A stretch of 64,000 nt of DNA, taken from assembly GCA_028554795.2 (NCBI GenBank), contig CM068830.1:113730214-113794213 (forward strand). The letters run 5' to 3'. Below the pieces are notes generated by a model. The model saw only the letters and a program-made list of their open reading frames with translations. It made no database searches and was not told the origin of the DNA. The position numbers were made by a program, and so were the translations under genes. Source of the stretch: Sinohyriopsis cumingii. Lineage: Eukaryota; Mollusca; Bivalvia; Unionida; Unionidae. This document shows positions 41,171 through 59,163 of the stretch, piece by piece; positions within the stretch are counted from its first letter, which is position 1; every line of letters begins with the position of its first letter.

Positions 41171-42570
<1,400 letters not shown>

Positions 42571-42937
42571 AGTAGTGAATGGGGACACCCTAGGGACTAG
42601 GGGAGTTCCATGTTAAAAAGGCAATATCCACTCTGGGGACTATGGAAAATTTAACATGGGAGAAAAAAATATCCACTCTGGGGACAAGGGAATTTAACAT
42701 GGGAGAATAAAATATCCATTCTAGGGACAAGTGGAATTGAACATGGGAGAAAAAATATCCATTCTAGGGACAAGGGGAATTGAACATGGGAGAAAAAATA
42801 TCTATTCTAGGTACAAGGGGAAATTAACATGGGATATGTTTTTTTTTTTGTTTTTTTTTTTTAAAAAGAGGGTTTGCAATTGAAAGTCAATCTCTTTTCG
42901 AGACCTATGAGTGGCCCTGAAAAGGGCCTTTGGGTTT
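42571..42937 (+). repeat. Element B left terminal inverted repeat
   Basis: Matches the reverse complement of 58795-59163 nearly throughout. It holds about five diverged subrepeats of roughly 44 bp (AATTTAACATGGGAGAAAAA.. with TATCCAYTCT.GGGACA), then a T-rich stretch, then a histone-type stem-loop and downstream element. Confidence 0.95.
42891..42928 (-). terminator. Histone-type 3' stem-loop inside the left TIR
   Basis: On the minus strand, AAAGGCCCTTTTCAGGGCC (core 42913-42928) forms a 6-bp stem with TTTC loop, followed by ACTCA and, about 10 nt on, CTCGAAAAGAGA (42891-42902). These are the core, flank and purine-rich downstream element of metazoan histone mRNA 3' ends. It lies 27 nt after the stop of the minus-strand gene 42956-43534. 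Confidence 0.8.
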
Positions 42938-42955
42938 CTTCTTCTTCTTGTTCTT

Positions 42956-43534
42956 CTAACTCCTCAACTTCTTTATCCATCCTCTTATTTTTTCCATCAT
43001 TCCTTTCTTCTTCTTTTCTGTTTCCGGTATCCAGTCCGGATGACCCATGGCTCGGAACTTCTGTTGGATTTTTATCCAGTTAGCGTTCAGTTTCTCTAGT
43101 TCTTCCTTTTTCTTTCTATTTTCTTCTTCTTTTCTATCTTTTGCCCACCTGTCCTTTATTTTCTCCACTTCTTCATCTATCACCTTTCTCATCTTTTCTT
43201 CCCCTTTTTTCAATCTTTCAACACTCCTTTTGACAAAGGGCCACTCTGACCTTTTTTCTATCTCTTCCAAAAACCTTCTTACTTCTTCTACCTTCTCCAG
43301 GGCCTCTTTTAATGTTCACACTCTGACATAAGGGGGATTTATTAGCCCTCTCAGTCTCTTCACTTCTTCTTCAATTAATCCTTATATCATCTCCCTGGCT
43401 AATTTTAGTTCGTTCACATAGTGCACACTGGTTCTTAACCTCCAATCTCTTTCAATCCTTTCAACTCCATATTCACCATCCACCATCCAAAAATAAACAT
43501 GCCTTAAATCATTGAACAGTTGGGACACTTCCAT
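42956..43534 (-). pseudogene. Highly charged coiled-coil-like small protein, two in-frame stops
   Basis: An ATG at 43534 opens a frame of about 192 codons that is interrupted by TAA near 43390 and TGA near 43317 but otherwise stays in one frame to the stop at 42956. The product is rich in Lys, Glu and Arg with heptad-like spacing (VERLKKGEEKMRKVIDEEVE) and ends in a basic tail. It is the outermost left gene, transcribed towards the TIR, and its 3' signal is inside the TIR. The downstream 104 codons could be translated alone from an internal Met. Function unknown; the charge suggests a DNA- or capsid-associated role. Confidence 0.6.
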
Positions 43535-43584
43535 CTTCTTTATTTATTCTTTATAGAATGGTTTCAACGACGAATACTGTGGGT

Positions 43585-43692
43585 TCTTATAGTGAAAGCG
43601 CGGACGTGATGGAAAACATCCCCCTAAGACATAAAATTGATATTACCTAGATCATGACCAAACAACGCGCGGACGTGAAGGAAAACATCCCC
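43585..43692 (-). promoter_or_regulatory. Promoter with paired upstream motif, gene 42956-43534
   Basis: On the minus strand two copies of GATGTTTTCCWTCACGTCCG (43599-43624 and 43667-43692, 68 bp apart) precede a TATA-like CACTATAAGA (43585-43594). The arrangement recurs before the neighbouring small genes. Confidence 0.7.
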
Positions 43693-43928
43693 TACTTTTC
43701 TCATTTCATATGATCTACTATCCACATACGTGAACCAGCAATAAACAAACCCAAATCTACTATTTACACATGCAAATCATTAAAACGAAATCCATAATCT
43801 ACTATTCACAAAAACGTACGTGAGCGCTTACAAACACAAACACAAACACATACCCTCACACTAGAAAAAAAGAGTCAGTGTTTATATTCACACTACTCTA
43901 CATACACACATTGGCAAATCGATTGTTA

Positions 43929-43966
43929 TTTCTTTTCTAGAGTATTGGGTAGCCCTGAAAAGGGCT
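43929..43966 (-). terminator. Histone-type 3' stem-loop, gene 43995-44300
   Basis: Minus strand AGCCCTTTTCAGGGCT (43951-43966) followed by ACCCA, then CTAGAAAAGAAA (43929-43940). Perfect stem. It lies 28 nt after the stop codon at 43995. Confidence 0.8.
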
Positions 43967-43994
43967 GTTTGTTTTTGAACTCCATGACACATGG

Positions 43995-44300
43995 TTAATG
44001 ATGGCACCTTCCAGGCCTGGCACCACACACACATCTTCTTCCCCAGTCTCTTTTCACTCGTTTTGGGGGAAGAGCAGAGGCGGGATAAGTGGCTTCAGAA
44101 TCCCAATTTTCTGTCTCTGGGATTCTGAAATTTCCTCTCTCCTCTTCGTTTCTTCTCTCTCCCTCTTCTTTGTTTCTTCTCTCCTCCTCTTTCATCCTTC
44201 CCTCTTCTACTAGGGCCTCTGCAGCCAGCTCATTCACTACACGCCTGGCATATTCCAGGTGTGCATGAAGTTCAAGCAGTTTTGCTAGTCTGGTATTCAT
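43995..44300 (-). CDS. Small charged protein with N-terminal helix and basic end
   Basis: 101 codons. The ATG at 44300 is chosen because the longer frame has only a TTG further upstream. The N-terminus is a helix (KLLELHAHLEYARRVVNEL), the middle is Glu/Arg/Lys repeats, and the C-terminus is basic with Cys/Gly (CVCGARPGRC). A TATA box (AGTATAAATT, about 44347-44356) lies some 50 nt upstream, followed further upstream by the paired promoter motif, and a histone-type stem-loop comes 28 nt downstream. A homologue is present in element A. Related in pattern to 44802-45155. Function unknown. Confidence 0.7.
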   Translation of the reverse strand: MNTRLAKLLELHAHLEYARRVVNELAAEALVEEGRMKEEERRNKEEGERRNEEERGNFRIPETENWDSEATYPASALPPKRVKRDWGRRCVCGARPGRCHH

Positions 44301-44344
44301 TCTCTTGATCAATCAACAAGGGTAGCTAGACTGCCGAACGAGTT

Positions 44345-44450
44345 TCAATTTATACTGAAACCGCGGACGTGATGGAAAACATCCCCCTAAAACATAAAAT
44401 TGATATTACCTAGATCATGACCAAACAACGCGCGGACCTAAAAGAAACAC
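44345..44450 (-). promoter_or_regulatory. Promoter with upstream motif, gene 43995-44300
   Basis: TATA box AGTATAAATT, then on its upstream side GGATGTTTTCCATCACGTCC (44361-44387) and a degenerate second copy (44431-44450) about 70 bp further. Confidence 0.72.
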
Positions 44451-44734
44451 TCACTCACTTTTTATACTATCCATTACTAATTTAAAAATTTTCATTAATC
44501 ACTTCAATATACTATCCACATACGCAAAGCAATCAAACCCCAAATCTACTCTCCCCACACGTCAAACAGCAAAAAAACAAAAAACCATGATCTTAATCTA
44601 CTATCCACATCAACGTACGTGAGCACTTACAAACACACAATCCTAAACACAAACACATACCCTCACACTAGAAAGAAAGAGTTAGTGTTTATATTCACAC
44701 TACTCTACATACACACATTGGCAAATCGATTGTT

Positions 44735-44773
44735 ATTTCTTTTCTACAGTTTGGGGTAGCCCTGAAAAGGGCT
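44735..44773 (-). terminator. Histone-type 3' stem-loop, gene 44802-45155
   Basis: Minus strand AGCCCTTTTCAGGGCT (44758-44773) then ACCCC and TGTAGAAAAGAAA (44735-44747). It lies 28 nt after the stop codon at 44802. Confidence 0.8.
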
Positions 44774-44801
44774 GGTTTTTTTTGTTTGCTATGGCAATCT
44801 T

Positions 44802-45155
44802 TTAGGTTCTAAGAATGCGACATCCTCTGAGGATAGACTTTCTGACGATAGGTCTGCTTCTTCGGAAAGAGAAGAAGAACTCTTTGGTGTCGATACGACA
44901 ATCGACAAAGCCTCTGTCAGGTTCAGGTTGCTGCTGCTGCTGCTGCTGTTGTTGTTGCTGTTGCTGCTGTCTCTGAAGTCTGTACTTCTCTGTCCATTCT
45001 TCTTTCTCCCTGTTCACTTCTTCTCTGAAGAGCTCTTCTATCAGGTCTTTTAACATTCTCACATTCTCTATCTCTTCAGCTTTCGGTATCAGACTGTGTC
45101 TGACCCTATGCAAATTCACGTAGGCTTCGTTTAGCTTAGCTAGTTTGGAGCACAT
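44802..45155 (-). CDS. Small charged protein with poly-Gln tract
   Basis: 117 codons from the ATG at 45155. The open frame extends further upstream, but that part translates the promoter motif itself, and the element A homologue starts at the matching Met. Order: helix (KLAKLNEAYVNLHRVRHSL), KAEEIENVRML, Glu/Arg-rich stretch, a run of about 16 Gln encoded by CAG/CAA, then a C-terminus with FRRSRPIVRKSILRG. Flanked by the promoter motif and histone-type stem-loop. Function unknown; related in layout to its neighbour 43995-44300. Confidence 0.72.
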   Translation of the reverse strand: MCSKLAKLNEAYVNLHRVRHSLIPKAEEIENVRMLKDLIEELFREEVNREKEEWTEKYRLQRQQQQQQQQQQQQQQPEPDRGFVDCRIDTKEFFFSFRRSRPIVRKSILRGCRILRT

Positions 45156-45220
45156 CTTCGTAGGAGGATGAGTCGACAATGGATGGTTTGACTGGAAACT
45201 GCCCCGGTTCTTAAAGTCAA

Positions 45221-45249
45221 AGCGCGGACGTGAAGGAAAACATCCCTCT
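45221..45249 (-). promoter_or_regulatory. Upstream promoter motif, gene 44802-45155
   Basis: Minus strand GGGATGTTTTCCTTCACGTC then CGCGC, followed downstream by a weak TATA-like GACTTTAAGA. Third intact occurrence of the motif in element B. Confidence 0.65.
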
Positions 45250-45375
45250 ACGGTTTTCGAGCCGGAACGTTCAATGAGTGTCATGAGAGATATAGAGAGA
45301 AGTCAAAGAGCATGAATCAACATTCTTATAGCCAAACAAAAGACAAAGGCATTTTTTTCAAAACACAACATTTTT

Positions 45376-45381
45376 TTATTC
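45376..45381 (-). terminator. Poly(A) signal AATAAA for the protease/capsid gene block
   Basis: AATAAA on the minus strand about 110 nt after the protease stop, in an A/T-rich 3' region without a stem-loop. The structural genes thus appear to use ordinary polyadenylation. Confidence 0.6.
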
Positions 45382-45489
45382 AAAAATCACTTAACACTAA
45401 CCAACAACTCTAACATTTTTTAACAATAATCCAACAATATAACATCAAACATTTTTTTCAAATCACAAACATTTTTTTCAATTCATACT

Positions 45490-46050
45490 CTACTTTAAAT
45501 AGGGCTGACAACGTTGTGAATGAAATTGTGATTTCCACTGTTGGAAGTCATTAGGCCATTGATGGACACTACGTTTCCTAGCTTGAGACAAAAGATAAGC
45601 ATAATGGTCACAAAACCATCGATCTACTTTCACATCATTTCTAGAAGAAGAACGAGGATCAAAATGAGTCACTAAATGTTCTAAGGAATAGCCCAGGCTG
45701 CGATGATGCAGAAAATACACGCAATATTGTCCACACACCAAAGAATCTGTGCCTTGTAATTTCACATTATTGAATCGGGTGGTCTGAGCATTTCTTCTCA
45801 TAAAGTCGATGATATCGTCTTCCAAAGGGGGCAATCCGTACGAATCGAAATATTCCACACATCCTTCTTGAGGAAAGTAAACGGCTACCCAATGGGTTCC
45901 TGGGAGATGACTGTCGTCCCTGTTGATCACATAAGCTAGATGGTCTTGAGGTTTGCGATGAGGGAGTTCATCTTTAGCACAGACGACAGGATTCCAAAAA
46001 GCCGTATACGAACTGTGGTTCAAAAGGTAATAAAGTTCCCAAGTTTCCAT
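45490..46050 (-). CDS. Adenain-like cysteine protease
   Basis: 186 residues. The ATG at 46050 is used; the frame further upstream has no ATG. Catalytic residues visible: His53 in GTHWVAVYF, Asp69 in EYFDSYGLPP and Cys110 in CGQYCVYFL, in the His-Asp/Glu-Cys order of the adenovirus protease (C5) family found in Polintons and adintoviruses. By analogy it matures capsid and core proteins in the particle. It lies directly after the gene at 46074-46529, as in element A. No lesion seen. Confidence 0.92.
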   Translation of the reverse strand: METWELYYLLNHSSYTAFWNPVVCAKDELPHRKPQDHLAYVINRDDSHLPGTHWVAVYFPQEGCVEYFDSYGLPPLEDDIIDFMRRNAQTTRFNNVKLQGTDSLVCGQYCVYFLHHRSLGYSLEHLVTHFDPRSSSRNDVKVDRWFCDHYAYLLSQARKRSVHQWPNDFQQWKSQFHSQRCQPYLK

Positions 46051-46073
46051 TTTTTGTGTGGTTTTTTTCTTCT

Positions 46074-46529
46074 TCACAGGTAATAATAAGTCATCAATTC
46101 GATTCTGACTTTTTGCTTGAAAATGTCTGACAAATAACCGTTTCTTCGTATCGTCTCCTCACTCTGATTCAGGAGAGCTTCGATACGATGGATCTCTTGA
46201 GTGGTTAATGGTGGACAAGAATGTTCACGCAAGTCTTTATACCACTGATGCAACACTACTTCGTCCGAGATGAGACTCCAAGCTTCGTCCAGATACTCGT
46301 CCAATTTTTCTTCTTGACTCAGCATCAGGCATTTATCGTGTTGAATTTGACTGGGATGATCGTTTTGACATCCATAGCACTCTTTTTTGATCAATTCCGT
46401 CATTTTTTCGACCAAGTGTTTGGCAAAACAGGAGACTAAATGTGATTCTTGTTCTGACCATCTAAACTTCATCATAACTTCGTCGTCTTTGTCTTGAGAT
46501 TCTTTTTCCACGGTCTCCTCACATTCCAT
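46074..46529 (-). CDS. Putative zinc-binding acidic protein next to protease
   Basis: 151 residues from the ATG at 46529 (the frame upstream offers only TTG). An acidic N-terminus is followed by a Cys/His cluster (CYGCQNDHPSQIQHDKC: Cys-x2-Cys-x4-His-x6-His-x2-Cys) that could hold zinc, then KLDEYLDEAWSLIS and a helical C-terminus. Conserved with element A at the same place between capsid and protease. I do not know its function. Confidence 0.75.
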   Translation of the reverse strand: MECEETVEKESQDKDDEVMMKFRWSEQESHLVSCFAKHLVEKMTELIKKECYGCQNDHPSQIQHDKCLMLSQEEKLDEYLDEAWSLISDEVVLHQWYKDLREHSCPPLTTQEIHRIEALLNQSEETIRRNGYLSDIFKQKVRIELMTYYYL

Positions 46530-46578
46530 CTCCAAAGTTTCTCACTAGGTAAAGAGGGATAACAGTCTTCCATAGCTT

Positions 46579-47877
46579 CTAATAGTCTAGAATGACTTCT
46601 CTCAAACTGTTGATTTCTATGGTATTATCGAATTCTGCATACAGGATGACGTTCACTGTCTCGTCCAGTGGCTTTGCAAACTGAAGTTCCACACGAATCT
46701 GGCCAGATTTTATAGGGTGGAAATATCCCTCGTCGCTGCCTTGGTCTGGAGTGAAATCGAAAGCCCACAAAGCATAGCCTCCTGCGCAATCGTCGTACGT
46801 AATGTCGTGACTGGTGTAGGTCCCTAATTGTCCGGTGGCTTCGTACAGGGACAAGTACGATCTCAAGTAATTCATCTTTGTGTCACCAAAGTCAGGTTCG
46901 AAAGGACGGGTACACAAGGTCTTGCCATCGCGACTGACTTCGATTTTCTTGACGTCGAAGTGTTGAAAGTAGAAAGGATTTTCAGCGAAGGCTCCGTTGA
47001 AGGCTGAATTCAAGACCATACCAAGGATTAAACGCTTCGGTAACTGTCCTTGAAACAGATGATCTTCGATCATGGAATGATGGTTACGGGGAATGGTGAA
47101 CGTTTTCACTTCCACGCGTCGGATGGGATACTTGGCGGTCGTTCTGCTCAACGTTTGACTGACGTCGTTTCCCACTTTAGGTAACACTTCCACGCGTCGT
47201 ACGTATAGTTTGTCCTCCTCGATTTTGCTTTTGACAGTACTATCAGCCAACAAATGGAAAGCGGTACTGCTACGATTCAGTCTCAAGCGAACATTTACCC
47301 CGTTCAGCAAATATTTCTCTTGCAACCACATGTCCAAATGCAAACGATCCATCAGTTCTAAACTCTTCTTATTTAAGATTTTGCTTCGTCTTTCCACAAA
47401 GCCATCATTGCTTTTATTTAATGTGTTAAACTCCTTCGCTTCGTCAGGTTCCCATAGCACACAGGCATTGAGATGAGTATTCTTGGCATCTATTCCGTAC
47501 GTCAAGAGATTTTCCAGGTAGGGACGGTAAGGGTAAGTATCCATGCTGCTGCTGACCAGTTTGTTATTCAAGTACAAGTCCACTGAGCTGAACAAGGAAT
47601 GCATGAAATTGTTGACAGGAGCTATATTCTCAGTGTCCTCTATTCCACCATCATCCTTATCTAGAACTTTGACTTTCAAGTACAAGTAACTGCTATTCAG
47701 ATCGATGTAATCTTCGGGCTGTCCTTTGATTTCAAACTCGACGGGAGCGGAATCTGTCAATGAGGAGACGGGGTGAAATTCCACCCATTGGGATTCTTGC
47801 ATCGTCATCATGGTAGGTGGCATGGCAAACAGATCCACTTCCGACCTGGAACAGGCGCAAGACTCTCGGTGCATCAT
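46579..47877 (-). CDS. Major capsid protein (double jelly-roll, hexon-like)
   Basis: 432 residues from ATG 47877; the open frame continues upstream to 48042 but that part overlaps the preceding gene in another frame. Landmarks: PVEFEIKGQPEDYIDL at about 45-60, NNFMHSLFSSVDLYLNNKLV, VRLRLNRSSTAFHLL, VEVLPKVGNDVSQTLSRTTA, and a conserved end FDNTIEINSLREVILDY. This is the Polinton/adintovirus capsid family that is often annotated in animal genomes as a conserved protein of unknown function. By family it forms the trimeric capsomers of an icosahedral particle. Frame fully open. Confidence 0.92.
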   Translation of the reverse strand: MMHRESCACSRSEVDLFAMPPTMMTMQESQWVEFHPVSSLTDSAPVEFEIKGQPEDYIDLNSSYLYLKVKVLDKDDGGIEDTENIAPVNNFMHSLFSSVDLYLNNKLVSSSMDTYPYRPYLENLLTYGIDAKNTHLNACVLWEPDEAKEFNTLNKSNDGFVERRSKILNKKSLELMDRLHLDMWLQEKYLLNGVNVRLRLNRSSTAFHLLADSTVKSKIEEDKLYVRRVEVLPKVGNDVSQTLSRTTAKYPIRRVEVKTFTIPRNHHSMIEDHLFQGQLPKRLILGMVLNSAFNGAFAENPFYFQHFDVKKIEVSRDGKTLCTRPFEPDFGDTKMNYLRSYLSLYEATGQLGTYTSHDITYDDCAGGYALWAFDFTPDQGSDEGYFHPIKSGQIRVELQFAKPLDETVNVILYAEFDNTIEINSLREVILDY

Positions 47878-47908
47878 TTGTTTCTGTGTCTCAATAATCG
47901 AAAACGTC

Positions 47909-48316
47909 TCAGTCTCGAACGGTTTTTCTTTTCTTTGTCTTTCTAGCTTTAGACGTGTGAAGTCTGGTGAAAGGGTATTTTCTTCGTCGTCTCTTTCTGC
48001 CTTGTCCTTGCTGAATGCCTGACTCGGTAGCGTGCAGGGCATTTATAGGTGTTTGTCGTCGGCCCAAAAGGTCTTTACCCATTTGCAGCAAGACATTTTT
48101 GCCTGCCCTCATGAAAGCTTCTTTGGGGTTTTGTTTGTCGATGATGACATTTTGGAGAAATTCTTTGCCTTGTGTCAGTGCCGCATCTTTCAAGGCGTGC
48201 AATCCGCGTGTCACCATCGGTTTCAACACCGGAGCCACCGAAAGAAAGGCCGATTTCAACATATCTCCTAAACCGTGTCCTCGCTGTCGAGCAACCCCTC
48301 GGTACTCTGGATACAT
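47909..48316 (-). CDS. Capsid-adjacent core/minor capsid protein (pVI/pX-like)
   Basis: 135 residues, ATG 48316. After a short N-terminus, RGHGLGDMLKSAFLS and LKPMVTRGLHALKDAALTQG form amphipathic helices; the C-terminus is strongly basic (GQGRKRRRRKYPF, KARKTKKRKT). Gene order and this layout match small proteins encoded just before the capsid gene in Polintons, thought to be adenovirus pVI/pX-like. DNA or inner-capsid binding is inferred. Confidence 0.7.
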   Translation of the reverse strand: MYPEYRGVARQRGHGLGDMLKSAFLSVAPVLKPMVTRGLHALKDAALTQGKEFLQNVIIDKQNPKEAFMRAGKNVLLQMGKDLLGRRQTPINALHATESGIQQGQGRKRRRRKYPFTRLHTSKARKTKKRKTVRD

Positions 48317-48319
48317 GAC

Positions 48320-48595
48320 TTACGAGTCGTGAGAGAACCGTTTTCGAAAATGGAGTTTCACCGTGACTTTTCCTTTGGACAAAGGGATCGTGCCTTTCAA
48401 GACATTCAAACAACATTCGCACACGGTATCGATGACCTCTTTGGAGGCTGATTGAATGAGTTTTTTTCGTAGAGGTGGAGAAGCTTTGGACAGGACAGAT
48501 AACATGTCCCCATGTTTGACTAAACGTGGAGGCAGTCCTTTTCTTTTCTTTCCTTGGGGCTGTTTAGAAGATGGATGTTTTCTGGAGGGTGACAT
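48320..48595 (-). CDS. Deletion-fusion ORF: VCECC protein start joined to penton end
   Basis: 91 codons, ATG 48595; TATA box (TATAAAAA, 48648-48655). Residues to about 72 (KHGDMLSVLSKASPPLRKK, DTVCECCLNVLKGTIPLS) match the element A protein at 29863-30350. The final 18 (KGKVTVKLHFRKRFSHDS) match the C-terminus of the element A penton remnant (near 26770), and like it are followed immediately by the capsid-adjacent gene. In A these two segments lie about 3.4 kb apart with penton and integrase between. The simplest reading is one internal deletion that removed both genes. Whether the fusion protein works is unknown. Confidence 0.75.
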   Translation of the reverse strand: MSPSRKHPSSKQPQGKKRKGLPPRLVKHGDMLSVLSKASPPLRKKLIQSASKEVIDTVCECCLNVLKGTIPLSKGKVTVKLHFRKRFSHDS

Positions 48596-48650
48596 CTTTG
48601 AGTCTTCAGCACCAAAAACACTGATACCCCGACTTGGTCACAGGCCTTTT

Positions 48651-49598: not shown

Positions 49599-49665
49599 GT
49601 TCAAAATGTGTGTGAAACAGACGAAAAGTGTCTGAGGTTTTTATAGATTTTTTTGTGGAATGAAC

Positions 49666-50391
49666 TTAAGTCGAGGACGGAGACGTGTACAGGACAGGCC
49701 CTCCGTCTTGGCACCAGTGGTGAAACAAGTGGGTACGAAATCGCAAATCCTCGGGGGTCGTAGGTTTCAAATCGACGAGTAAATAGGCGTGTGGCGTTTG
49801 AGTGGCATCGTCATACGCCTGAGTCAGCCAAGGCGTTCCTAACTGTTTGGCTAAGACTTGCACTTGCGATTTATCTCGAGGGCTTTTAAACAAGACCACG
49901 TAATGCGCATTGAGACTGATGGTGCGATGGGCTTTACTTTGTTGAAACCAATTTTGGGCGATGTAAACGACACTGGCATTACAGTGATGCCCTTTGCGCG
50001 TGAACCACAGTTTAATTTCTTCTTCGTCTTCTCCTAACATGTCGTCAAAAATGACCAAATGGGTTAGACGGGAGTCAGAGACGATGCCGTCGTCTTCTTT
50101 AGGAATGCCTTCCACAAACACGATGGAATCGCCTTGACTTTCTCGCAAGAGGCTGTACGCCGATTGCCACTCTTTGTAACACCACACGATCCGTTGAGGT
50201 GGCCGATCGATCAAATGATGTTTATGTTCGATCAAACGTGTGACGAATTCGGTTTTGCCTGAACTGCTAGGTCCTGCAATGAGCATGTTAAGGGGATGGC
50301 GAGGATACAAAGCCTCCCAACTGGCACGAACTGGTTCGTGGATGACTTTGACAGTAGAGGAAGAGGGAGCAGAGACAGCAGAGGTAGCCAT
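49666..50391 (-). CDS. Genome-packaging ATPase (FtsK/HerA, A32-like)
   Basis: 241 residues, ATG 50391, TATA box (TATATAAA) at 50438-50445. Walker A GPSSSGKT at 40-47, Walker B LVIFDD at 112-117, and a YIAQNWFQ sensor segment near 143-150. This is the packaging ATPase of Polintons and related double-jelly-roll viruses, which drives DNA into preformed capsids. Length is typical and the frame is open. Confidence 0.92.
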   Translation of the reverse strand: MATSAVSAPSSSTVKVIHEPVRASWEALYPRHPLNMLIAGPSSSGKTEFVTRLIEHKHHLIDRPPQRIVWCYKEWQSAYSLLRESQGDSIVFVEGIPKEDDGIVSDSRLTHLVIFDDMLGEDEEEIKLWFTRKGHHCNASVVYIAQNWFQQSKAHRTISLNAHYVVLFKSPRDKSQVQVLAKQLGTPWLTQAYDDATQTPHAYLLVDLKPTTPEDLRFRTHLFHHWCQDGGPVLYTSPSST

Positions 50392-50462
50392 AGTGTCAGG
50401 AATGTCACTTGTGACACGAAAACAAACAAGACGAGAGTTTATATACTTTTTTTTAGAACACG

Positions 50463-50468
50463 TTTATT
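50463..50468 (-). terminator. Poly(A) signal AATAAA for genes 50657-51195
   Basis: Minus-strand AATAAA downstream of the overlapping gene pair and just upstream of the ATPase TATA box; the same arrangement exists in element A at 31884-31889. Confidence 0.6.
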
Positions 50469-50580
50469 GAATGTTTTAAACATGAATACGAAAGACAAAA
50501 ATACATAAAAGCCAAAGGCTTAAGTACAAGGATAAAAGGCACATGATAACCATTAACGTGGAATAAAAACAAGTGTCTGT

Positions 50581-51195: not shown

Positions 51196-51364
51196 GGCAG
51201 CCTGTTTTTATAGTCTCTTTGTTTCGGAAACAATACACGTACTTTCTAGCCAGAGATCTTCGTTCTCCAGTGGGGAATTTAAATGTTGCATACTGTAACA
51301 GAAACGTCAGACTTCGTTTAGAAGTTTCCTCTTCCGCTAAGTAGATTCCACGTAAAATATGTCT

Positions 51365-51658
51365 TTAATCCTTTACCTTGTCTTCCTCAATGTGTTGTAC
51401 TAGGTGAATCTCGAAGTAACCAAAATGATCAAGACGTGGATCATCGGGGGCCTGGAAGTATTGAACAAGGTCTGACCACTGAAACAATTTCTGACGAATC
51501 AGTTCTCTTATACCATTCAGGTACCAGTGGTTAAAGATCTGGTAACGTAACGGATGCAACTGTTCTTTACGTTTGACTTGTATTTTGACCAGCTCTCGGT
51601 AAATGCGTTCTCTCAACTCCACAGGCAAAGAACGAATGTTCTCGTGTAAAGTATCCAT
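51365..51658 (-). CDS. Unrecognised 97-residue helical protein downstream of the BIR gene
   Basis: The frame is open to 51799, but the Met at 51658 is chosen because it matches the element A start (MDIFQESIRG) and lies 17 nt after the BIR stop. Encodes VELRERIYRELVKIQVKRKE, FNHWYLNGIRELIRQKLF and an acidic end. An alternative Met at 51730 would overlap the BIR gene. Function unknown. Confidence 0.55.
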   Translation of the reverse strand: MDTLHENIRSLPVELRERIYRELVKIQVKRKEQLHPLRYQIFNHWYLNGIRELIRQKLFQWSDLVQYFQAPDDPRLDHFGYFEIHLVQHIEEDKVKD

Positions 51659-51675
51659 GAACAGATTATGGTAAG

Positions 51676-52317
51676 TTACTTCAATGTCTCGGTCCCACCT
51701 AAGGGTAAGTAATGACAATTCGGTGACCATCGAGCATGTTCTACGTAGGCCGAATCTTGCGGTTCCCAGTGGTGAAGTGACACACCGCAACTGAAGCACT
51801 TGACTTTATCTCCTTCCCCCAAGTAGAAAAATCCGGCTCTGGCTAATTCTTCCGGGGTCGGGCCTCCCAGATACTTAGGACATTTTCCTTTGAACGATTG
51901 AAGACGATTTTCAAAGTCGCAGTATTCCGACAAACGCACAGGAAACGTATATTCGTCTTTCACAGGTTCGTTTCGATGAGGGTTGAGTGACATGGGCAGG
52001 AGTTTACTCAGAGCTGGATGACATCCGTAGGGGGGTAGACGTGAAGGTGAACATTCCCCTTTAAAACGAAACCCAGTAAAATGTCCAAGAGGACGAGCGG
52101 CATCGCTTTCGCATCCCTCAGGTTTGACACGCACAGCATCACTTTCCATGATAGGGGTAGTGAGAACAAAGTTCCCACGATGCTTTACGGCATCGCTAAG
52201 GTCACAACGTACAGCATTGTACCCATCGCAAGGCTCACAATCGCATTCCACTTCCGAAGCCCCACACTTGAATTGTGCCTGTCTAAACTTGTTTTGTGCT
52301 TCTCTGAAAGTATTCAT
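51676..52317 (-). CDS. IAP-like protein with one BIR domain
   Basis: 213 residues, ATG 52317, TATA box (TATAAAAA) at 52373-52380. The N-terminal 110 residues are Cys-rich and unrecognised. The BIR domain spans about 122-206 with zinc ligands C174, C177, H194 and C201 (Cys-x2-Cys-x16-His-x6-Cys) and the usual ARAGFFYLGEGDKVKCFSC core. No RING or CARD follows. BIR proteins inhibit caspases or regulate signalling in animals, and DNA viruses of invertebrates carry them to block host cell death; an anti-apoptotic role here is inferred. A homologue is in element A, so it is an old component of this family. Confidence 0.9.
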   Translation of the reverse strand: MNTFREAQNKFRQAQFKCGASEVECDCEPCDGYNAVRCDLSDAVKHRGNFVLTTPIMESDAVRVKPEGCESDAARPLGHFTGFRFKGECSPSRLPPYGCHPALSKLLPMSLNPHRNEPVKDEYTFPVRLSEYCDFENRLQSFKGKCPKYLGGPTPEELARAGFFYLGEGDKVKCFSCGVSLHHWEPQDSAYVEHARWSPNCHYLPLGGTETLK

Positions 52318-52421
52318 GTTGTTCGTTCGGTCTTGGTAGTCTCAATGAACTATCGATCTTGACCGTAGCCCCTTTTTATACTAGTCCCAATGCAGGCTCA
52401 AGCTTGTACATCGTTCCTTTT

Positions 52422-52835
52422 TTATGTTTTTTTATGTCTTGTTTTGGAAGGTACCGTCTCTAAGGTACCGTCATCATTGTACCGTAATGTCATGGGTGGA
52501 AAGGCCATAGAAAGGTAAGGGCAGTGCGGAGACCATCGAGTTTGTTCGAGAATAGCTGAATCTTTATAGATACATAGATCCATTCGTAACTTCAGGCCAC
52601 AAGCGAAACACTGTACTTCATGTCCCAATCCTGACTCACGTCCCAAGTAGACAAATCCTGTTCTAGCTAAAATATGCGAAGAAGGTAATCCTTTCCTATC
52701 CGTAGGCCATGCTTGAAACGTGTCCAATCGACGGGCACAATTACAATATTCAGGCAAGAAAACCGGAAAAGGGTAGGGTTTGAACTTGGAGTTCTCATCG
52801 GGTTTCTCACTCGATTCTTGCTGTGGCGAAGTCAT
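52422..52835 (-). CDS. Second BIR-like protein with an altered zinc site
   Basis: 137 residues, ATG 52835, only 23 nt after the polymerase stop and 104 nt before the first BIR gene. The BIR-like region at about 20-110 has LARTGFVYLGRE and C76, C79 and C105, but the canonical His is Gln98 (EQTRW instead of EHARW), and the spacing is two residues longer. A neighbouring His104 might substitute. No counterpart in element A, so it was gained by B (perhaps by duplication) or lost from A. Binding ability is uncertain. Confidence 0.8.
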   Translation of the reverse strand: MTSPQQESSEKPDENSKFKPYPFPVFLPEYCNCARRLDTFQAWPTDRKGLPSSHILARTGFVYLGRESGLGHEVQCFACGLKLRMDLCIYKDSAILEQTRWSPHCPYLSMAFPPMTLRYNDDGTLETVPSKTRHKKT

Positions 52836-52858
52836 CCTTCTGGTGGATGGCTATCCGC

Positions 52859-55800
52859 TTACAACCAAAGTTTTATACCATCATGTCCATACGGCAAAGA
52901 TAAATGATTGGGAAGTCGCACTCGCTTCTGGTACACGATTTGATAGACTTTTTCCAAGGGTCGACTGACGATGTGGTGAGTGGGTAAACGTACATTCTTG
53001 TTCGGTTGATAGGTGGTCACTTTAAAGTGTTCATCCTCTCCTGATTGCAAGGCTTCTTTCAATACCCCAAAGTTGACCACACGACTGGTACGATAATTCA
53101 GAGTCAATCCTTTCACTTTGCACGTCGTGTGCACTTCTCCTTGTGGGTCCCGGTATTCGTAGCCGTAATTTTTGGGACCGCCACTGACGAAACTTAGAAT
53201 CTTGACGTCGGGATGCTCGTCTGTCCAGGCTCCTAAACGGTCTCCTTCGATGTCAGGGTGCTGTTGACTCGGGTGATGGATGTAAATGCAACTGTCCGTG
53301 TCAAAGTACAGGACGCGTTCCCCTAACAGTTCTAAAGCTTCGTACAATTTTAAGCGAGCATGAGCTGTCACGTAAGCCGCAATGATGACATTTCCAAAAG
53401 GGTCGTCTTGTACAAAGTCCAGATCTTCTTCGTAATTGACCAACATCAAATCCTCGCGAACGACGTCAACGTGTTTCATGAATTTGGTTTTGTCGTGAAT
53501 CATCTGGAAGTAGCGGGAAGGTTCTATCAAATATTCCGTCTTGGGTAAACACGGGCGTTGTGCCATTTTACCCCACAAGCAATTTAACATCACTTTGGCA
53601 AACGATCGCCTGCCTTCGTTTTTCTCGATGTGGTCTAAAGAGATGCCTTCGTGTTCATAGTATTTCTCTTTGAATGTCTTTTCGTCTTCGGGAGTGTGAC
53701 ACCAGGACGGATAGCCACTGGCTTCTTGCTTCAGTTTCAAAAAGGCATCTACGTAGTCGGCGAAAATGCCTTTCTGCGTGGGGTCACCCTTGTGGTATTG
53801 TTGTGTCTTGGGAAAGTGGCAAATTTCGTACACTTCTAACAGTTGGTATCCCATGTCCAGAGCTTTGAACAATTCCACGCTAACCCACGTTCCCGTCAAG
53901 GCACGTTCTTCCTGGGTGTGCTGACAAGGATGATCTTGGTTGCACGTTTCGGCACAAGTACGGCACAAAGGAAACATCAGTTTGCCTTGGCAATGGTGAG
54001 GTAGCACGGGATGATACAAGTCCGTGGGAGGCAAGACTTTGCACTTGATCAGACCTTCGTATTGTCGAATGTTTTTCAGGTCGATGTGTTCCGTCAACAA
54101 TTGTGGGTGCCCTACAGGAAAGCGACAATATTTGCACACGTAGGGATACAGCGAACACACGTCCAAGTATTTGATTTCTTCTCCTTTCTCTTCGTCGGCT
54201 TGGTACAGCAAACAGGTGGCATTGGTCCTTCCTCCGTACAAACTATTCCTCGGGTTCAGGGGGTCCATCAGCTTGTAACTTTCCACGACACTTTTAAACT
54301 CGGGATCGATTTTCAAACGGTGATCGTATTCGTGTTCCCACATTTCCACCACTTGGTATCCTTCCTGTTCTAACTTGAAGCTTCGCTCACAAGTGTCCTG
54401 GCACAGGTCTTCCATGGTCCGTTGTAAAAACTGATTTTTAGTGTCACGGTCAGGGTAACAGACGGGACATCCGTGAAATAAGCAACCGTTAAACTCGTAC
54501 ACGATCTTGGGGTTTCTAAGTCTCAGCCATCGACCGAATGCGTTCCGATGGTCTTTTCGCCCCTTCCGTTGCGGGCATGCTGAATCCATTTGTCTTCCTT
54601 GTCGCACAAGTAATGTAACCAGCGTAGGGCTTTGACCGAGTATTGACGTTTGACATAGTTGGTCGTTTGAGGGCTGATGACAGCCACGGTTTTTTCAGGC
54701 ATGAATCATTGTCGATACACTACGGAACACGCTTTGGCAATGGTGCAAGCTTCCTTCAAAGGATCGACCCTCCGTGTTCCATGAACAGTTCTCAAAATTT
54801 TCCACAGCAACGCCGTAAAGTGTCCACGTCGGAACGACAATACTTTAGCATTTCTTCCTGAAAGTCGAAAGGGTCCGAGGCGTGAGCCTGGTACCAAGCG
54901 TAGAAAGCTTCTCGTTGTTCGGTACGCATGTTGTCGGGGTCGTAATAATGAGCCTCAGGCAAATGGGGTAGAACGGCATATTGATTGGCTTCCGTATTGA
55001 AAAAGTGAGGAAAATAACCTTTAGCCATTTCTGTCATTCCAAACTTTTTAGGCATTCGACTCAAAGGCATGGCCAAGTAACTCATCGAATCTTTAAACTG
55101 CACTTGTCCCACTTGCATGAAAATGATTTTGGCTCCGTTCAAAGTCACTTTAGGACGTTTGGTGCCATGTTCCGTATAGTATCTGAGAAGAAACTGTCCA
55201 TCGTATCTGGAGAAATTGTGAGCCATCACTGTGGCATGACGATGACAATCTCCGTAACGTTCGATGTCCTCTTGGCTCCACGTCTTGTCGATGGGGTCTA
55301 AGACCCATTGGGCAAAATCGGCTAACGTGTTCGGTCCCCGAAAGATTTTTTCACGTCCTCCAGGAATCTTGCTGCAGTGAGGGCAATGACTGAAGATAGA
55401 TTTTTGAATGCACTTCTCGCACGCTCGATGAGCTACGCAGAAATTAGGAATGTGAATGCCAGTCTCTTGCATGCATTCGAAATCGAAAAAGATGAAGTTG
55501 CCTTTCTTCTTGTGTCCATCCTCTTTCTCTGGTGGGGGTTGGTATTTTTGCACGTAGCATTGGTATTCCAAGTCCACGATGTGGTGACAAATGTGACATT
55601 TTTTCTTTCCTGAACATACGTGTGCCTTGGCACTATTGGTACGTATGCCTTGTCCACACGTAGGGCACAATCTCAGGAGTTGACAAGCACATTTCTGCTG
55701 TGAACCTTGTGTCTTCAGATGTTGTTGGTAACAGGCAGGGCTGACAAACGTGCGCAGGCAAGTTGAACAATGCACTGGTCCTTCGCTCAGACAGGGTGGA

Positions 55801-56894
55801 GAGGCCAAACATCCTGAGCATTTCAATCCACAATGTTTGTGTTGCTCTCGATTATTATGACCATGGTCACATTTCTCACAGTAATATTTGTATCCTAGGA
55901 ATCCGGTGATACTGGTAATGGTATCGAAATAGTCATCGTGATAATAGACATGAATGTATTTTCCATCCTTAAAGTCTTTCCCTCGAAACAACAGAGGCCC
56001 GCGCATTTCTTGAGGGTACACTTTCAAGGTGTATCGTGGAGCTAGGGCATCTTGCAATTTTTGCATCTCAGGAATGCCACAGGGTGTGTCTTTGGACAGT
56101 CCGGCTTGTTGTAACAGGAGTTCTGCTTCATTTCGTTGTTTGGCTCGGTTCGATTTTCGAATGTTCTCCCAGGTTCTTTTCCATTCTACCGTGTCGTTCT
56201 TGTTGGCATGGGTTCGTCCCACCACGATAGCCCTGGCTAAACACATCTGGTCTTGAGGGTTGTGAATTCGGACGAGGCTTGTTTTGGTGATGCGAAGGTC
56301 GTTCACCAATAACACCTTTTTGCGGCCAGTCCCTTGAGGAGGAGAGACGTGGGTCATGTCCAGTGTGACTTTTCCATCGGTGATGTTAAACTGATCATTG
56401 GATTGTTGTACGTGTTGAATTTTGTCCATGACTTTGGAAGCAGTCAATTCTGCAGGGGTGCTAAACTCGATCCAAACAGGGGATTTCAAACCGTCGTGTT
56501 GTATGGAAAGTCTCAAGCGATCGTCTTCTTTGGGTTGACATTGTCGCTTGAGTGTGGTGAGCAAAGAATCCCACACCCCGGTGATGAACCCTTCTGCTTT
56601 CTCTAACGGTACTACAGCCTTGAAATCTTTAAACTTCACCGTGTATTTGTAAACCGTGGTTCTAAATTTTCTAGAGGAGCGCTTTTCCGTCTCTCGAGTG
56701 GAATAGTACTTTTCAGGGTTGACTAAGGGTGGTGACCTTTGTTTAGAGGGTTCGGATTCTGGTTCACTCATGTCCTCTTCAAAATCACTGGCATGAATTT
56801 GTGCCAAGACTTCAGTCCTGGTACGAGGCGACAGATCACGTTTCTGCCTCTTACTTTCTTCTTCTTTCTTCTCAAATGAATTGGATCGTTTCAT
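52859..56894 (-). pseudogene. Protein-primed family B DNA polymerase, broken in a short central stretch
   Basis: Two long minus frames (56894-54792 and 54607-52859) make one gene of about 1,340 codons. N-terminal part: ATG 56894, basic start, unrecognised domain, Cys/His-rich region about 339-440, then exonuclease motifs (FFDFE at 469-473, AHNFSRYDGQF with Asn560 and Asp565, YCRSDVDTL near 690). C-terminal frame: motif A DVCSLYP, motif B FAKVMLNCLWGKMAQ, motif C YFDTDS. Between 54530 and 54800 there are two frameshifts and two TGA codons (one CGA to TGA, one TGG to TGA, judged against element A). All polymerase motifs themselves are intact. It would replicate the linear genome by protein priming. 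Confidence 0.93.
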
Positions 56895-57026
56895 CTTGAG
56901 TGCAAAACGTCAAATGACTCAAGTTTAAACACCATGGACTAATTTATAGTCATGGCAGACCAGCGTATATAAAGGGATGTGTCTTGTCCTTTCACTATTC
57001 ATTTCACTCTCAGACCGAGCACAACG
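56895..57026. promoter_or_regulatory. Divergent promoter between polymerase and zinc-knuckle genes
   Basis: TATA box TATATAAA at 56966-56973 faces the plus-strand gene and ATAAAT (56942-56948, minus strand CTATAAATT) faces the polymerase. The 130-bp region is the only spacer between the two genes; a similar arrangement exists in element A (about 36660-36800). Confidence 0.7.
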
Positions 57027-57452
57027 ATGGAAGAGACTAGCCAGATCGAACGTTTCATCAGAGCTTTGCGAGGGGTCATTAGAAAATTCTCTTCAGACCA
57101 GCCGACGGACTACTCTCCTTCCTTTCAAGATAAAAGTCAAGATACTTGCTATATCTGTCAAAAGAAAGGGCATTGGTCTTCAGAGTGTCCAAACCGTCAA
57201 AAAAAAAAAACAAAAAAAAAACCAGGGGCTAGAAAAGACAAAAGTCAAGATACCTGTTATTATTGTCAAGAAAAAGGACATTGGTCTCCAGATTGCCCAA
57301 AAAAGAAACAAGAGGAGTCAGAAGAAAAGAGGGATTCTTCAGAAGAAGAGAGGGATTCTTCAGAGGAAGAAAGCAGCCAGGTGAAGAAAAAAAACAGGAG
57401 AAGAAAAGAAGAAGGGAAGAAAGTGAGGAGGAAGAAGAGGAAAAGACTGTGA
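57027..57452 (+). CDS. CCHC zinc-knuckle nucleic-acid-binding protein
   Basis: 141 residues from ATG 57027 (upstream frame has only GTG). Two knuckles: C41, C44, H49, C54 and C77, C80, H85, C90 (Cys-x2-Cys-x4-His-x4-Cys), each in a repeated DKSQDTCYxC..KGHWS context, joined by a Lys-rich linker. The C-terminal 50 residues are Glu/Ser then Lys/Arg repeats. Retroviral nucleocapsid-type knuckles bind single-stranded nucleic acid; the role in this element, possibly replication or RNA binding, is inferred. Ordinary AATAAA follows at 57566-57571. Confidence 0.88.
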   Translation: MEETSQIERFIRALRGVIRKFSSDQPTDYSPSFQDKSQDTCYICQKKGHWSSECPNRQKKKTKKKPGARKDKSQDTCYYCQEKGHWSPDCPKKKQEESEEKRDSSEEERDSSEEESSQVKKKNRRRKEEGKKVRRKKRKRL

Positions 57453-57565
57453 CGGTGAAGAAATTTAAAAACAAGAGAGACTAAACAATGAGACAGAAGA
57501 AGTGTATGAACTTTTTAAAGTGTTATGTTGTGAATTGTGAATTGGATTGTAACTATTGATAAAAC

Positions 57566-57571
57566 AATAAA
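57566..57571 (+). terminator. Poly(A) signal AATAAA, zinc-knuckle gene
   Basis: AATAAA about 110 nt after the stop of the zinc-knuckle gene; no stem-loop of the histone type on this strand here. Confidence 0.6.
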
Positions 57572-57704
57572 TTAATTATATAAGGTAAGTGTCTTTGGGT
57601 TTTGATTTTAAAATAAGAACGTAGACTCACGCACTCATACACAGACACGTACTATATGGGTCAAATGTTTTTTTTTTTTTGAGTTATTGGCAAATTCAAA
57701 GTGC

Positions 57705-57743
57705 ATCTCTTTTCGAGGGACGTGGGTGGCACTGAAAAGGGCC
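57705..57743 (-). terminator. Histone-type 3' stem-loop with one stem mismatch
   Basis: Minus strand AAAGGCCCTTTTCAGTGCC (core 57728-57743) followed by ACCCACG and CCTCGAAAAGAGAT. One mismatched pair in the stem; flanks and downstream element fit well. It lies 25 nt after the stop at 57769. Confidence 0.72.
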
Positions 57744-57768
57744 TTTGGTTTTTAGTGTAGGGGTGAGT

Positions 57769-58330
57769 TTAAGCAATCAACTTTAACTGTCTTGAGCCTT
57801 TGCCACGGCCAAGGCCTACTTCTGGACTACGTACTGTTGATGATGATTTGGTTGAAATCACTAAGGGTGGTACGGTAGGCTTAGTCACAGGGTTGACGTG
57901 TTTAGCTCGGGAAGGTTGTATTCTCTTCGGTCGTAATAAAGAAGTCTGATACATTTGTTTCAGACTTGTTAACTCCGCTAAAATGTCCAACAGTACCGTG
58001 ACCGTTTGATTTTCACCCTCTTGTTTCTTTGCTGCTACTTCTTCTTGTTGTTTTTTTTCTTACCTCTTCTTCTTGCTGCTGTTGCTGTAGGAGAAAAGCT
58101 TGTTCCGCTTCCTTTTGTCGTTGTATAAATTTCTCCAATTCTTCTTTCTGTCTCTGTCTAAAATTCTCAAATTGCGGTAATGATGGTGACGAAAGTTCCG
58201 GAACAAATTCTTGCGAGGTAAGAAAATCCACAAAATCCCAATTAACCTCTTCTGAAAGTAAGTCCGGGTTCCCTTGGGCGGTCTCCACTACTGGTGCACC
58301 CCAATGGATCGTTTTCTGAGTTTCCGTCAT
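57769..58330 (-). pseudogene. Gln/Glu/Lys-rich protein, frameshifted at an A8 run
   Basis: ATG 58330. The first frame (to 58013) encodes WDFVDFLTSQEFVPELSS and a Gln/Glu/Lys coiled-coil-like region. At an eight-A run near 58050 the frame shifts, and the conserved second half (VTVLLDILAELTSLKQMYQT, then a Pro/Arg-rich basic tail with GLGRGKGS) continues in another frame to 57769. Element A shows the same two halves joined without that homopolymer. Mutation, assembly error or translational slippage could explain it. Function unknown. Confidence 0.6.
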
Positions 58331-58549
58331 GTTGAATCACTGTCGCATAGATTGACTGCACACAGGCGCTAGCGAATCTATATAGACCACGTGACGTCAC
58401 AGACTGCTCTCTTCGGATTGGATGCGGTCTGACTGAATTTTGTAACGCGTGTTTGGATTTGTCAACAAACTCAATCCGTTTCAATCCTACCTCTACCTAT
58501 AAATAAGTGCAGTTCACTGCATTGATTCACCTGTTCTCGGTGCCTCAAG
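58331..58549. promoter_or_regulatory. Divergent promoter with CRE-like and CCAAT-like sites
   Basis: TATA-like TATATAG (58378-58385) serves the minus-strand gene and TATAAATA (58498-58505) the plus-strand gene. Between them lie a perfect palindromic TGACGTCA (58392-58399) next to CACGTG, and ATTGG (CCAAT on the minus strand) near 58415. The CCAAT and TATA boxes are conserved in element A; the CRE is not evident there. Confidence 0.65.
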
Positions 58550-58780
58550 ATGTGGACCGATGAGCAATCTTCTACGCTTGTGCCTTCAATGATGTTTAGG
58601 ACGGACATGCTAATGTATGTCCGATCCAAGTGGACCGTTGTCCACAAGTCAGACACCAGTCTGTGGATACGAAGAGTGTACGTGGAAAGACAAGGTTGCC
58701 TCAAGAGGACACTGATTTATGGCCCTCGAGTAAGACGCAGCTTGAGGACAAGAAGATGCCGCAGATGCCCTTTATGTTAA
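58550..58780 (+). CDS. Small Arg-rich basic protein at the right end
   Basis: 76 residues, ATG 58550. The C-terminal half is strongly basic (RRVYVERQGCLKR, GPRVRRSLRTRRCRRC) and conserved in element A; the N-terminus is variable. Size and charge suggest a protamine-like or adenovirus pX-like DNA-condensing peptide, but no family is recognised. It is transcribed outwards, and its 3' stem-loop lies 23 nt after the stop, inside the right TIR. Confidence 0.7.
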   Translation: MWTDEQSSTLVPSMMFRTDMLMYVRSKWTVVHKSDTSLWIRRVYVERQGCLKRTLIYGPRVRRSLRTRRCRRCPLC

Positions 58781-58794
58781 GGGCATATTAACAT

Positions 58795-59163
58795 AAACCC
58801 AAAGGCCCTTTTCAGGGCCACTCATAGGTCTCGAAAAGAGATTGACTTTCAATTGCAAACCCTCTTTTTTTTAAAAAAAAATAAAAAACAAAAAAACAAA
58901 TCCCATGTTAATTTCCCCTTGTCCCTAGAATAGATACTTTTTTCTCCCATGTTCAATTCCCCTTGTCCTAGGATGTATATTTTTTCTCCCATATTCAATT
59001 CCCCTTGTCCCTAGAATGGATATTTTTTCTCCCATGTTAAATTCCCTTGTCCCCAGAGTGGATATTTTTTTCTCCCATGTTAAATTTTCCATAGTCCCCA
59101 GAGTGGATATTGCCTTTTTAACATGGAACTCCCCTAGTCCATAGGGTGTCCCCATTCACTACT
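58795..59163 (-). repeat. Element B right terminal inverted repeat
   Basis: Complement of 42571-42937 with few differences, ending CCCCATTCACTACT at 59163. Holds the stem-loop, T/A-rich stretch and about five 44-bp subrepeats. Confidence 0.95.
58801..58841 (+). terminator. Histone-type 3' stem-loop inside the right TIR
   Basis: AAAGGCCCTTTTCAGGGCC with core 58804-58819 (perfect 6-bp stem, TTTC loop), then ACTCA and, about 10 nt on, TCTCGAAAAGAGA (58829-58841). Confidence 0.82.

Follow-up and report, generated by a model that had tools for sequence, protein, structure and literature searches.

Histone-type 3′ ends and promoter motifs on small genes of a Polinton/adintovirus-type element in the genome of the mussel Sinohyriopsis cumingii

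Animal Polintons and adintoviruses carry a capsid-type protein, a type B DNA polymerase and an A32-type ATPase, between terminal inverted repeats flanked by a 6-bp target duplication. The 3′ ends of metazoan replication-dependent histone genes (Rfam family RF00032, Histone3) are composed of a hairpin with its loop, an AC(C/T)C flank and a purine element 13–14 nt on, positioned after the stop codon and served by SLBP and U7 snRNP. SLBP abundance is tied to the cell cycle in the animals covered by one review (PMC3771687). A Histone3 match in a virus has been reported for SARS-CoV-2, where it scores 14.7 bits and lies inside a coding region (PMC7786107).

The element described in this work, named element B, was found in a window of 64,000 nucleotides of contig CM068830.1, and combines features of these systems. 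It shares with animal Polintons and adintoviruses the gene set and the termini, but differs from them in its histone-type 3′ ends and promoter motifs; no integrase was seen among 20 ORFs scanned with Pfam. Its gene ends have the hairpin, loop, flank, purine element and post-stop position of replication-dependent histone genes, although the genes are non-histone, reside in a mobile virus-like element, and their processing is predicted. As in the SARS-CoV-2 case, the Histone3 match is in a virus-type genome; however, the 14.7 bits there are below the curated cut-off of 34 bits, whereas copies of the element reach up to 45.6 bits, at gene ends and with flanks that match those of the host.

Element B covers 16,593 bp (42571–59163, unstranded), as delimited by inverted-repeat, end and gene-content analysis, and is present in very many copies in the host genome. 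Its terminal inverted repeats begin with AGTAGTGAATGGGG and are bordered by the target-site duplication GATAGA (42565–42570 and 59164–59169, plus strand); since the left flank is a GATA microsatellite, this match is weaker evidence than usual. Pfam identified a type B DNA polymerase (DNA_pol_B_2; 52859–56894, minus), split in two pieces in the window copy, a packaging ATPase (Pox_A32, barely over the cut-off; 49666–50391, minus) and two BIR (inhibitor-of-apoptosis) proteins (51676–52835, minus). The product of 46579–48042 (minus), which we take to be the major capsid protein from its motifs, has no Pfam match; it has 778 relatives, the 120 listed being unnamed or 'uncharacterized', and its double jelly-roll capsid fold is putative. 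A putative protease (45490–46077) was named by eye and has no Pfam match. The Pfam scan for a retroviral-type integrase covered 20 ORFs, a subset of the frames of a partly broken copy. Searches of IMG/VR with the capsid protein, a capsid alignment, the polymerase and the 57.7-kb protein returned no relatives.

The five stem-loops that the first-pass annotation had reported in element B are all present, on the sense strand of the gene that precedes each one. On the minus strand, the left terminal-repeat copy (42913–42928) follows the stop at 42956 of a lysine/glutamate-rich gene (42956–43534) adjoining the repeat; the stem-loop at 43951–43966 follows the stop at 43995 of a 101-aa gene (43995–44300) whose product ends in RRCVCGARPGRCHH; its duplicate at 44758–44773 follows the stop at 44802 of a glutamine-rich gene (44802–45155, with the start at 45155 predicted by hand); and that at 57728–57743 follows the stop at 57769 of a gene (57769–58330) encoding about 183–195 aa in unbroken copies, with the C-terminus GRGKGLRQLKLIA. 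On the plus strand, the right terminal-repeat copy (58804–58819) follows the stop at 58780 of a strongly basic 76-aa gene (58550–58780; net charge +12, pI 11.1). Other copies have longer frames in front of the 42.9-kb and 57.7-kb sites, so both frames are taken as broken in the window copy. The distances from stop codon to stem are, in the same order, 27, 28, 28, 25 and 23 nt, in agreement with the 23–28 nt first noted. The purine element described in that annotation is also found, as GAAAAGA starting 13 nt past the stem at all five sites (42893–42899, 43931–43937, 44738–44744 and 57708–57714, minus; 58833–58839, plus). The 6-bp stem with a 4-nt loop holds with full pairing at four sites, but the window copy of 57728–57743 has one mismatch and pairs in 5 of 6 positions; its predicted fold has −4.2 kcal/mol (z −0.86).

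All five sites were matched by the Rfam histone 3′ stem-loop model, the search proposed with the first annotation, with fold prediction as further evidence at the four fully paired ones. The two terminal-repeat sites (42888–42933, minus; 58799–58844, plus) scored 37.5 bits each, over the cut-off, and the others scored below it: 31.5 bits for 43926–43971, and 27.6 bits for both 57704–57748 and 44733–44778 (all minus). For these three, E-values were 1.4e-5 to 4e-4 in a 22-kb search with 4,227 families and 4.1e-5 to 1.2e-3 when all 64 kb were searched. The window contains GCNCTTTTCAGNGC five times, where shuffles predict 0.02 occurrences. A stem of at least five pairs with AC and AAAAGA was observed six times, and not once in any of 200 simulated windows; the additional place most likely corresponds to 24071–24086, in element A of the same window. 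Since the outer two sites are terminal-repeat twins, and 43951 and 44758 are tandem duplicates (within a 148-bp duplication of 93% identity), the five stem-loops count as three independent signals. A chance origin was also considered, and is ruled out by the Rfam E-values, the shuffles and the comparison with the host.

In the host, all five replication-dependent histone types (H1, H2A, H2B, H3 and H4) have the hairpin form of the element with a GAAAAG core 13–14 nt on, so that the layout of histone pre-mRNA 3′ ends claimed for the element is borne out in hairpin, core and spacing. The second stem pair is G-C in 40 of 40 distinct rows. Element and host histone ends also have in common a distal TTTCAATTTGCC block, TTTCAATT(T)GCC, 3′ of GAAAAG. 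A host U7 snRNA was searched for with RF00066, with no match among the 65 scored of 801,960 candidates and likewise none in control genomes; a pattern search gave 14 places (5 in the reversed control), and the eight examined had no Rfam match and none was U7-like.

Genome-wide, 37,428 exact hairpin-plus-purine signals were counted, and none in the reversed control. A Histone3 search of the genome scored 75 of 589,472 first-look candidates, all with at least 34.5 bits; the best 30 loci were fetched, and every one was an element copy, none of them with a histone gene. Mean pairwise mismatch was calculated from 25 sites other than the one by which each locus was fetched, 12 of the 43.9-kb type and 13 of the 57.7-kb type. 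For these types, respectively, it was 0.062 and 0.038 in the hairpin, 0.189 and 0.177 in the spacer from hairpin to GAAAAGA, 0.024 and 0.000 in GAAAAGA, and 0.181 and 0.149 in the 20 nt that follow. The stem-loop is thus conserved across copies, with less variation in hairpin and GAAAAGA than in the spacer that separates them, although the compared copies lean to the well-kept ones because each was fetched by one good signal. The hairpin window ranks in the lowest 12% of windows in the 43.9-kb type and in the lowest 25% in the 57.7-kb type, where its 0.038 is no better than upstream coding sequence (0.038 and 0.054). Stem cells were paired in 96.3%, and 15 cells were changed on both sides; none of 500 shuffles reached either value, whereas 65 and 37 of 500 reached two coarser measures. 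Purifying selection acts on the genes next to the signals, with dN/dS of 0.12 (the 76-aa gene, 16 sequences), 0.20 and 0.50, the weakest being in the 57.7-kb gene.

Motifs of the host H2B, H1 and H4 promoters were found on three of the five hairpin genes, all on the minus strand. A histone-type motif lies at 43599–43622, where 24 nt (43597–43620) are identical to the host H2B promoter, with a second copy bearing one change at 43668–43691; the motif is repeated upstream of the 44300 gene (44362–44385), accompanied at 44427–44447 by TTTCTTTTAGGTCCGCGCGTT, which the host H4 promoter also has, and upstream of the 45155 gene (45223–45246). These three promoters score 45–48 against host histone promoters, versus at most 30 in 300 shuffles and at most 25 in 13 genes that have no hairpin, and the two right-hand genes have no match to the histone promoter motif (P 0.54 and 0.90). 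Promoter blocks differ between copies by 0.027–0.073 and other blocks by 0.041–0.190, and each of the 17 first-listed places of the motif has a hairpin on the same strand no more than 1.7 kb away (mean for random places 0.39). The motif, TTTTC(A/C)ATCACGTCCGCG, resembles in sequence the vertebrate histone H4 Site II/HiNF-P element, TTTTCAATCTGGTCCG. No paper linking HiNF-P to NPAT, histone H4 and Site II came up in a literature search.

We propose, with a probability of about 0.86, that element B runs the small genes near both its ends in imitation of the replication-dependent histone genes of the host. The observations are of sequence and position, of predicted structure, of signals identical to those of the host and of their conservation in copies, and from them we infer SLBP/U7 cleavage, a lack of poly(A) and S-phase timing of the element mRNAs. 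The hairpin on each transcript would be bound by SLBP, and GAAAAGA 13 nt on would be read by the host U7 snRNP. Cleavage between the two would yield short mRNAs with a hairpin end instead of poly(A), which may be stable and well translated while SLBP is abundant, i.e. during DNA replication. The messages would be cut by SLBP and U7, probably in S phase, and the conservation in copies and the promoter motifs on three of five genes support the link to S phase. With those motifs in addition to the hairpin ends, both start and end of the message would be under histone-type control, which suggests that element B borrows the gene programme of host DNA replication.

Other explanations share part of this evidence. 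That the hairpin is a DNA-level feature, such as a terminal-repeat, replication or integration site, whose likeness to the histone hairpin is due to chance or descent, would suit the two sites that border the terminal inverted repeats on the inside; it is highly improbable, since the other three sites are internal, each of the five comes directly after a stop codon on the sense strand, stem pairing is kept through changes, and a DNA hairpin would have no need of the flanks, GAAAAG core and 13-nt spacing of host histone ends. Scarcely more probable is that an ancestor acquired pieces of host histone genes that now persist without function. The long stretches identical to the H2B and H4 promoters of the host, the shared distal block, which fits capture of a histone repeat, and the 57.7-kb hairpin, no better kept than its upstream neighbourhood, agree with such a relic; but the intervening spacer is more variable than hairpin and GAAAAGA, promoter blocks vary less than most surroundings, signals are correctly placed at both ends of three different genes, and purifying selection is seen on the neighbouring genes, albeit weakest in the 57.7-kb gene.

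A less remote, still unlikely alternative accepts cleavage at the hairpin but outside S phase, with timing set by the element and the histone 3′ end serving as a short end free of poly(A). Two of the five genes have no histone promoter motif, and terminal repeats would leave little space for ordinary 3′ ends; against it, three genes do have such motifs, and the SLBP level is bound to the cell cycle in the animals treated in the review cited above (PMC3771687).

If the mimicry of histone genes holds, histone ends together with promoter motifs would give a DNA virus a new means of keeping in step with DNA replication in its host, and the very many copies would be a natural experiment on the requirements of the histone 3′ end and promoter. 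We give about even odds to the wider proposal that a DNA virus lineage assembled a histone-type regulon, with histone promoter motifs and 3′ ends on non-histone genes, that would give viral messages transcription in or near the histone locus body, together with SLBP/U7 processing and stability in S phase. As the genome has tens of thousands of copies of the signal, the lineage may also draw SLBP, U7 or the promoter-binding factor away from host histone genes.

Among other Polintons, the signal was not seen in six distant contigs from bacterial genome bins, and for this reason it looks specific to the element B lineage. RF00032 had no match in five of these contigs, and the best score of a purpose-built model on all six was 15.7 bits (E 0.85). 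A hairpin pattern found 17 loci in IMG/VR, none with histone flanks and 13 with one common sequence context, and a second pattern that included the flanks found none. Among the matches listed in a search mostly of literature outside subscription, there was no earlier report of histone-type ends on such elements.

The description of the gene products as DNA-binding proteins is retained in part: that of 58550–58780 is strongly basic and those at 42.9 and 44.8 kb are basic, but those at 43.9 and 57.7 kb are near neutral (pI 5.7–8.9). No homologue of the 76-aa protein was found. A point against the proposal is that the right-hand terminal-repeat gene also has an AATAAA 99 nt beyond its stop. Element A contains three decayed stem-loop sites, none detected by Rfam; they were found by the purpose-built model, which was trained on two of them and gave the untrained third 21.7 bits (E 0.025). 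A point in favour of the proposal is a relative with 65–70% protein identity, whose C-terminal tail looks like the translation of a hairpin followed by GAAAAGA.

Element B, a Polinton/adintovirus-type element, occupies 42571-59163. It has terminal inverted repeats and is flanked on both sides by GATAGA, the left copy lying within a GATA repeat. Inside the terminal repeats, at 42603-42819 and 58938-59113, there are tandem units of about 43 bp. Its products include a type B polymerase (split in two here), an A32-type ATPase, a capsid-type protein and two BIR (inhibitor-of-apoptosis) domain proteins (51676-52317 and 52422-52835). The capsid-type protein has 778 relatives, and among the 120 listed those with animal names are from one gastropod and otherwise from bivalves, which makes a mollusc the probable host. 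Despite the 6-bp target duplication, the 20 ORFs scanned gave no integrase. A small protein encoded at 56979-57452 (plus strand) has a highly charged tail, and two CCHC zinc-knuckle motifs were recognised in it by eye; a 94-bp repeat lies within its coding region.

The first-pass annotation had described five histone-type stem-loops in this element, and all are present, at 42913-42928, 43951-43966, 44758-44773 and 57728-57743 on the minus strand and at 58804-58819 on the plus strand. As it had also described, each lies on the sense strand just after the stop codon of a small gene (stop-to-stem gap 23-28 nt) and has a purine-rich downstream element. At every site this element contains GAAAAGA, 13 nt past the stem. 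The covariance model Histone3 (RF00032) of Rfam matched all five sites at 27.6-37.5 bits, two above the curated cut-off and three below it, the latter with E-values of 1.4e-5 to 4e-4 over 4,227 families and 4.1e-5 to 1.2e-3 when the whole window was searched. The hairpin structure at these sites is a predicted one; the paired stem holds at four of them, while that at 57728-57743 has one mismatch in this copy and a weak fold. The five represent three independent signals, since one pair belongs to the two terminal repeats and another pair arose by tandem duplication. For unbroken frames only, dN/dS was 0.12 in the 76-aa gene (58550..58780, plus strand; 16 sequences), 0.20 in the 43.9-kb gene (43995..44300, minus strand; 6 sequences) and 0.50 in the 57.7-kb gene (57769..58330, minus strand; 9 sequences).

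The host genome (2.9 Gb, 1,138 contigs) gave 114 matches to H4, almost all of which belong to tandem arrays. Two array stretches read present the same hairpin form at H1, H2A, H2B, H3 and H4, and in the one stretch measured GAAAAG lies 13-14 nt past the hairpin. Host histone signals reach 35.0-39.4 bits by Rfam, and element copies up to 45.6 bits. In the element, GAAAAG is succeeded by another block, TTTCAATT(T)GCC. With a version of this block chosen from element copies as the reference, the five host histone genes jointly beat all 20,000 random draws, via H2A, H2B and H4; H1 and H3, each alone, were not unusual against the draws. In several genes of the host histone repeat (L084), the block shared with the element reads approximately TCAATTTTGCC and lies about 14-16 nt past the GAAAAG start.

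The likeness at promoters is an addition to the first-pass annotation. The three left-hand hairpin genes are preceded by a recurring motif that has 24 nt identical to the host H2B promoter and is nearly identical to the H1 promoter; the 44.3-kb gene (start 44300, minus strand) has the host H4 promoter block in addition. The motif presumably resembles the vertebrate H4 Site II/HiNF-P element. When 18 element genes, with starts partly set by hand, were scored against host histone promoters, three of the five hairpin genes reached 45-48 and the remaining pair 18 and 20, and the 13 non-hairpin genes ranged from 18 to 25. The maximum of 300 shuffles was 30 (95% point 24), and the highest non-hairpin score of 25 (P 0.037) is therefore unremarkable among 13 genes. 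Among copies, the motif blocks vary by 0.027 and 0.028 in the 44.3-kb gene (6 of 12 loci usable) and by 0.045 and 0.073 in the 43.5-kb gene (start 43534, minus strand; 11 of 12 usable), and the remaining blocks by 0.041-0.190. The host genome contains 6,754 instances of the motif (reversed control 0). All 17 places listed below 6.26 Mb of host contig C1 have a hairpin signal on the same strand no more than 1.7 kb away; random placement gives a mean of 0.39. Five genes of element B match host histone genes at the 3' end and three at both ends; the position, conservation and abundance of the signal are likewise observed.

A Histone3 search of the host genome scored 75 of 589,472 first-look candidates, all above the cut-off; one of 14 control genomes gave a match, below it. 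The best 30 loci were fetched; every one aligns to element B, the main alignment having 73-92% identity, and in none was a histone gene detected. The exact pattern GCCCTTTTCAGGGCNAC-(8-14)-AAAAGA, which by inspection the host histone hairpins of the two array stretches do not fit, occurs 37,428 times in the host genome (reversed control 0); we infer that the remaining places are element copies, as verified only for the 30 fetched loci. A 601-base right-end probe gave 1,901 first-look candidates, and the 40 scored have 96-100% identity, so part of the element family is recent.

Conservation was tested only at sites other than the one through which a locus was fetched. After exclusion of locus-centre sites, of those with fewer than 200 aligned bases and of those where no hairpin was located, the set comprised 12 sites of the 43.9-kb type and 13 of the 57.7-kb type, together with 4 right-end sites, 1 left-end site and none of the 44.8-kb type. 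Mean pairwise mismatch in the 43.9- and 57.7-kb types, respectively, was 0.062 and 0.038 in the hairpin, 0.189 and 0.177 in the spacer, 0.024 and 0.000 in GAAAAGA, and 0.181 and 0.149 in the following 20 nt. A hairpin and a downstream core that are both retained, with a freely varying spacer between them, form the pattern that recognition by SLBP, the hairpin-binding protein, plus the U7 snRNA would produce. On the other hand, the 57.7-kb type hairpin alone is no better conserved than the preceding coding sequence, the mismatch in its ACCC flank is 0.112, and the compared copies were fetched through one good signal each. Covariation was assessed in 42 aligned sites (40 distinct), comprising 5 from the window, 5 host histones, 2 decayed sites of element A and 30 copies. 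Stem cells were 96.3% paired and 15 were changed on both sides, each beyond 500 shuffles; the number of pairs changed on both sides was reached by 65 of the 500 and that of further pair types by 37. In 13 of the 15 cells the change is the same outer G-C to A-U replacement, which may have arisen only once.

AATAAA follows the stop codon by 109 nt in the protease-like gene, 188 nt in the 50.7-kb gene and 113 nt in the zinc-knuckle gene, and is absent from 10 of the 13 other element genes listed. Of the five hairpin genes, just one carries it within 250 nt of the stop, at 99 nt; because those 10 genes also lack it, the difference is no more than suggestive. The established histone pathway (PMC3771687; PMC5706932) is the basis for reading the element signals, and histone hairpins of bivalves are treated in PMC6210712. 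By analogy with this pathway, SLBP would bind the hairpin transcripts of element B, U7 would guide their cutting, the mRNAs would be without poly(A), and the hairpin genes would be expressed in S phase. The host U7 was not found among the 65 of 801,960 candidates of the host genome scored by RF00066, a model that gave no match in the control genomes either, nor among the 8 places read of 14 from a pattern search (reversed control 5).

For the 57.7-kb protein, 19 relatives were found at 56-91% identity; their contigs measure 0.9-2.3 kb. One of them, P0129 (65% identical by BLASTP, 70% in alignment), has a longer C-terminal end whose tail, WPISGPPTSLEKR, at the protein level only, is the one-frame translation expected of hairpin plus GAAAAGA with few changes. 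Against any frame at the exact hairpins of the 30 loci its best alignment was 77, and 2,000 shuffles of the same peptide gave 39 or less. No histone-type signal was found in six distant Polinton contigs (L018-L023), an absence that is weak evidence because the stretches span only 3.6-21 kb. These contigs, which encode relatives of the Polinton capsid protein, are filed under bacterial genome bins, several from animal symbionts, and are probably host contamination. Element A (35963-38698, 24044-24092 and 37422-37467) is an older relative of element B, with an end that matches element copies at about 64-72%. Its decayed histone-type sites are located at 38617-38664, 24044-24092 and, weakly, 37422-37467.
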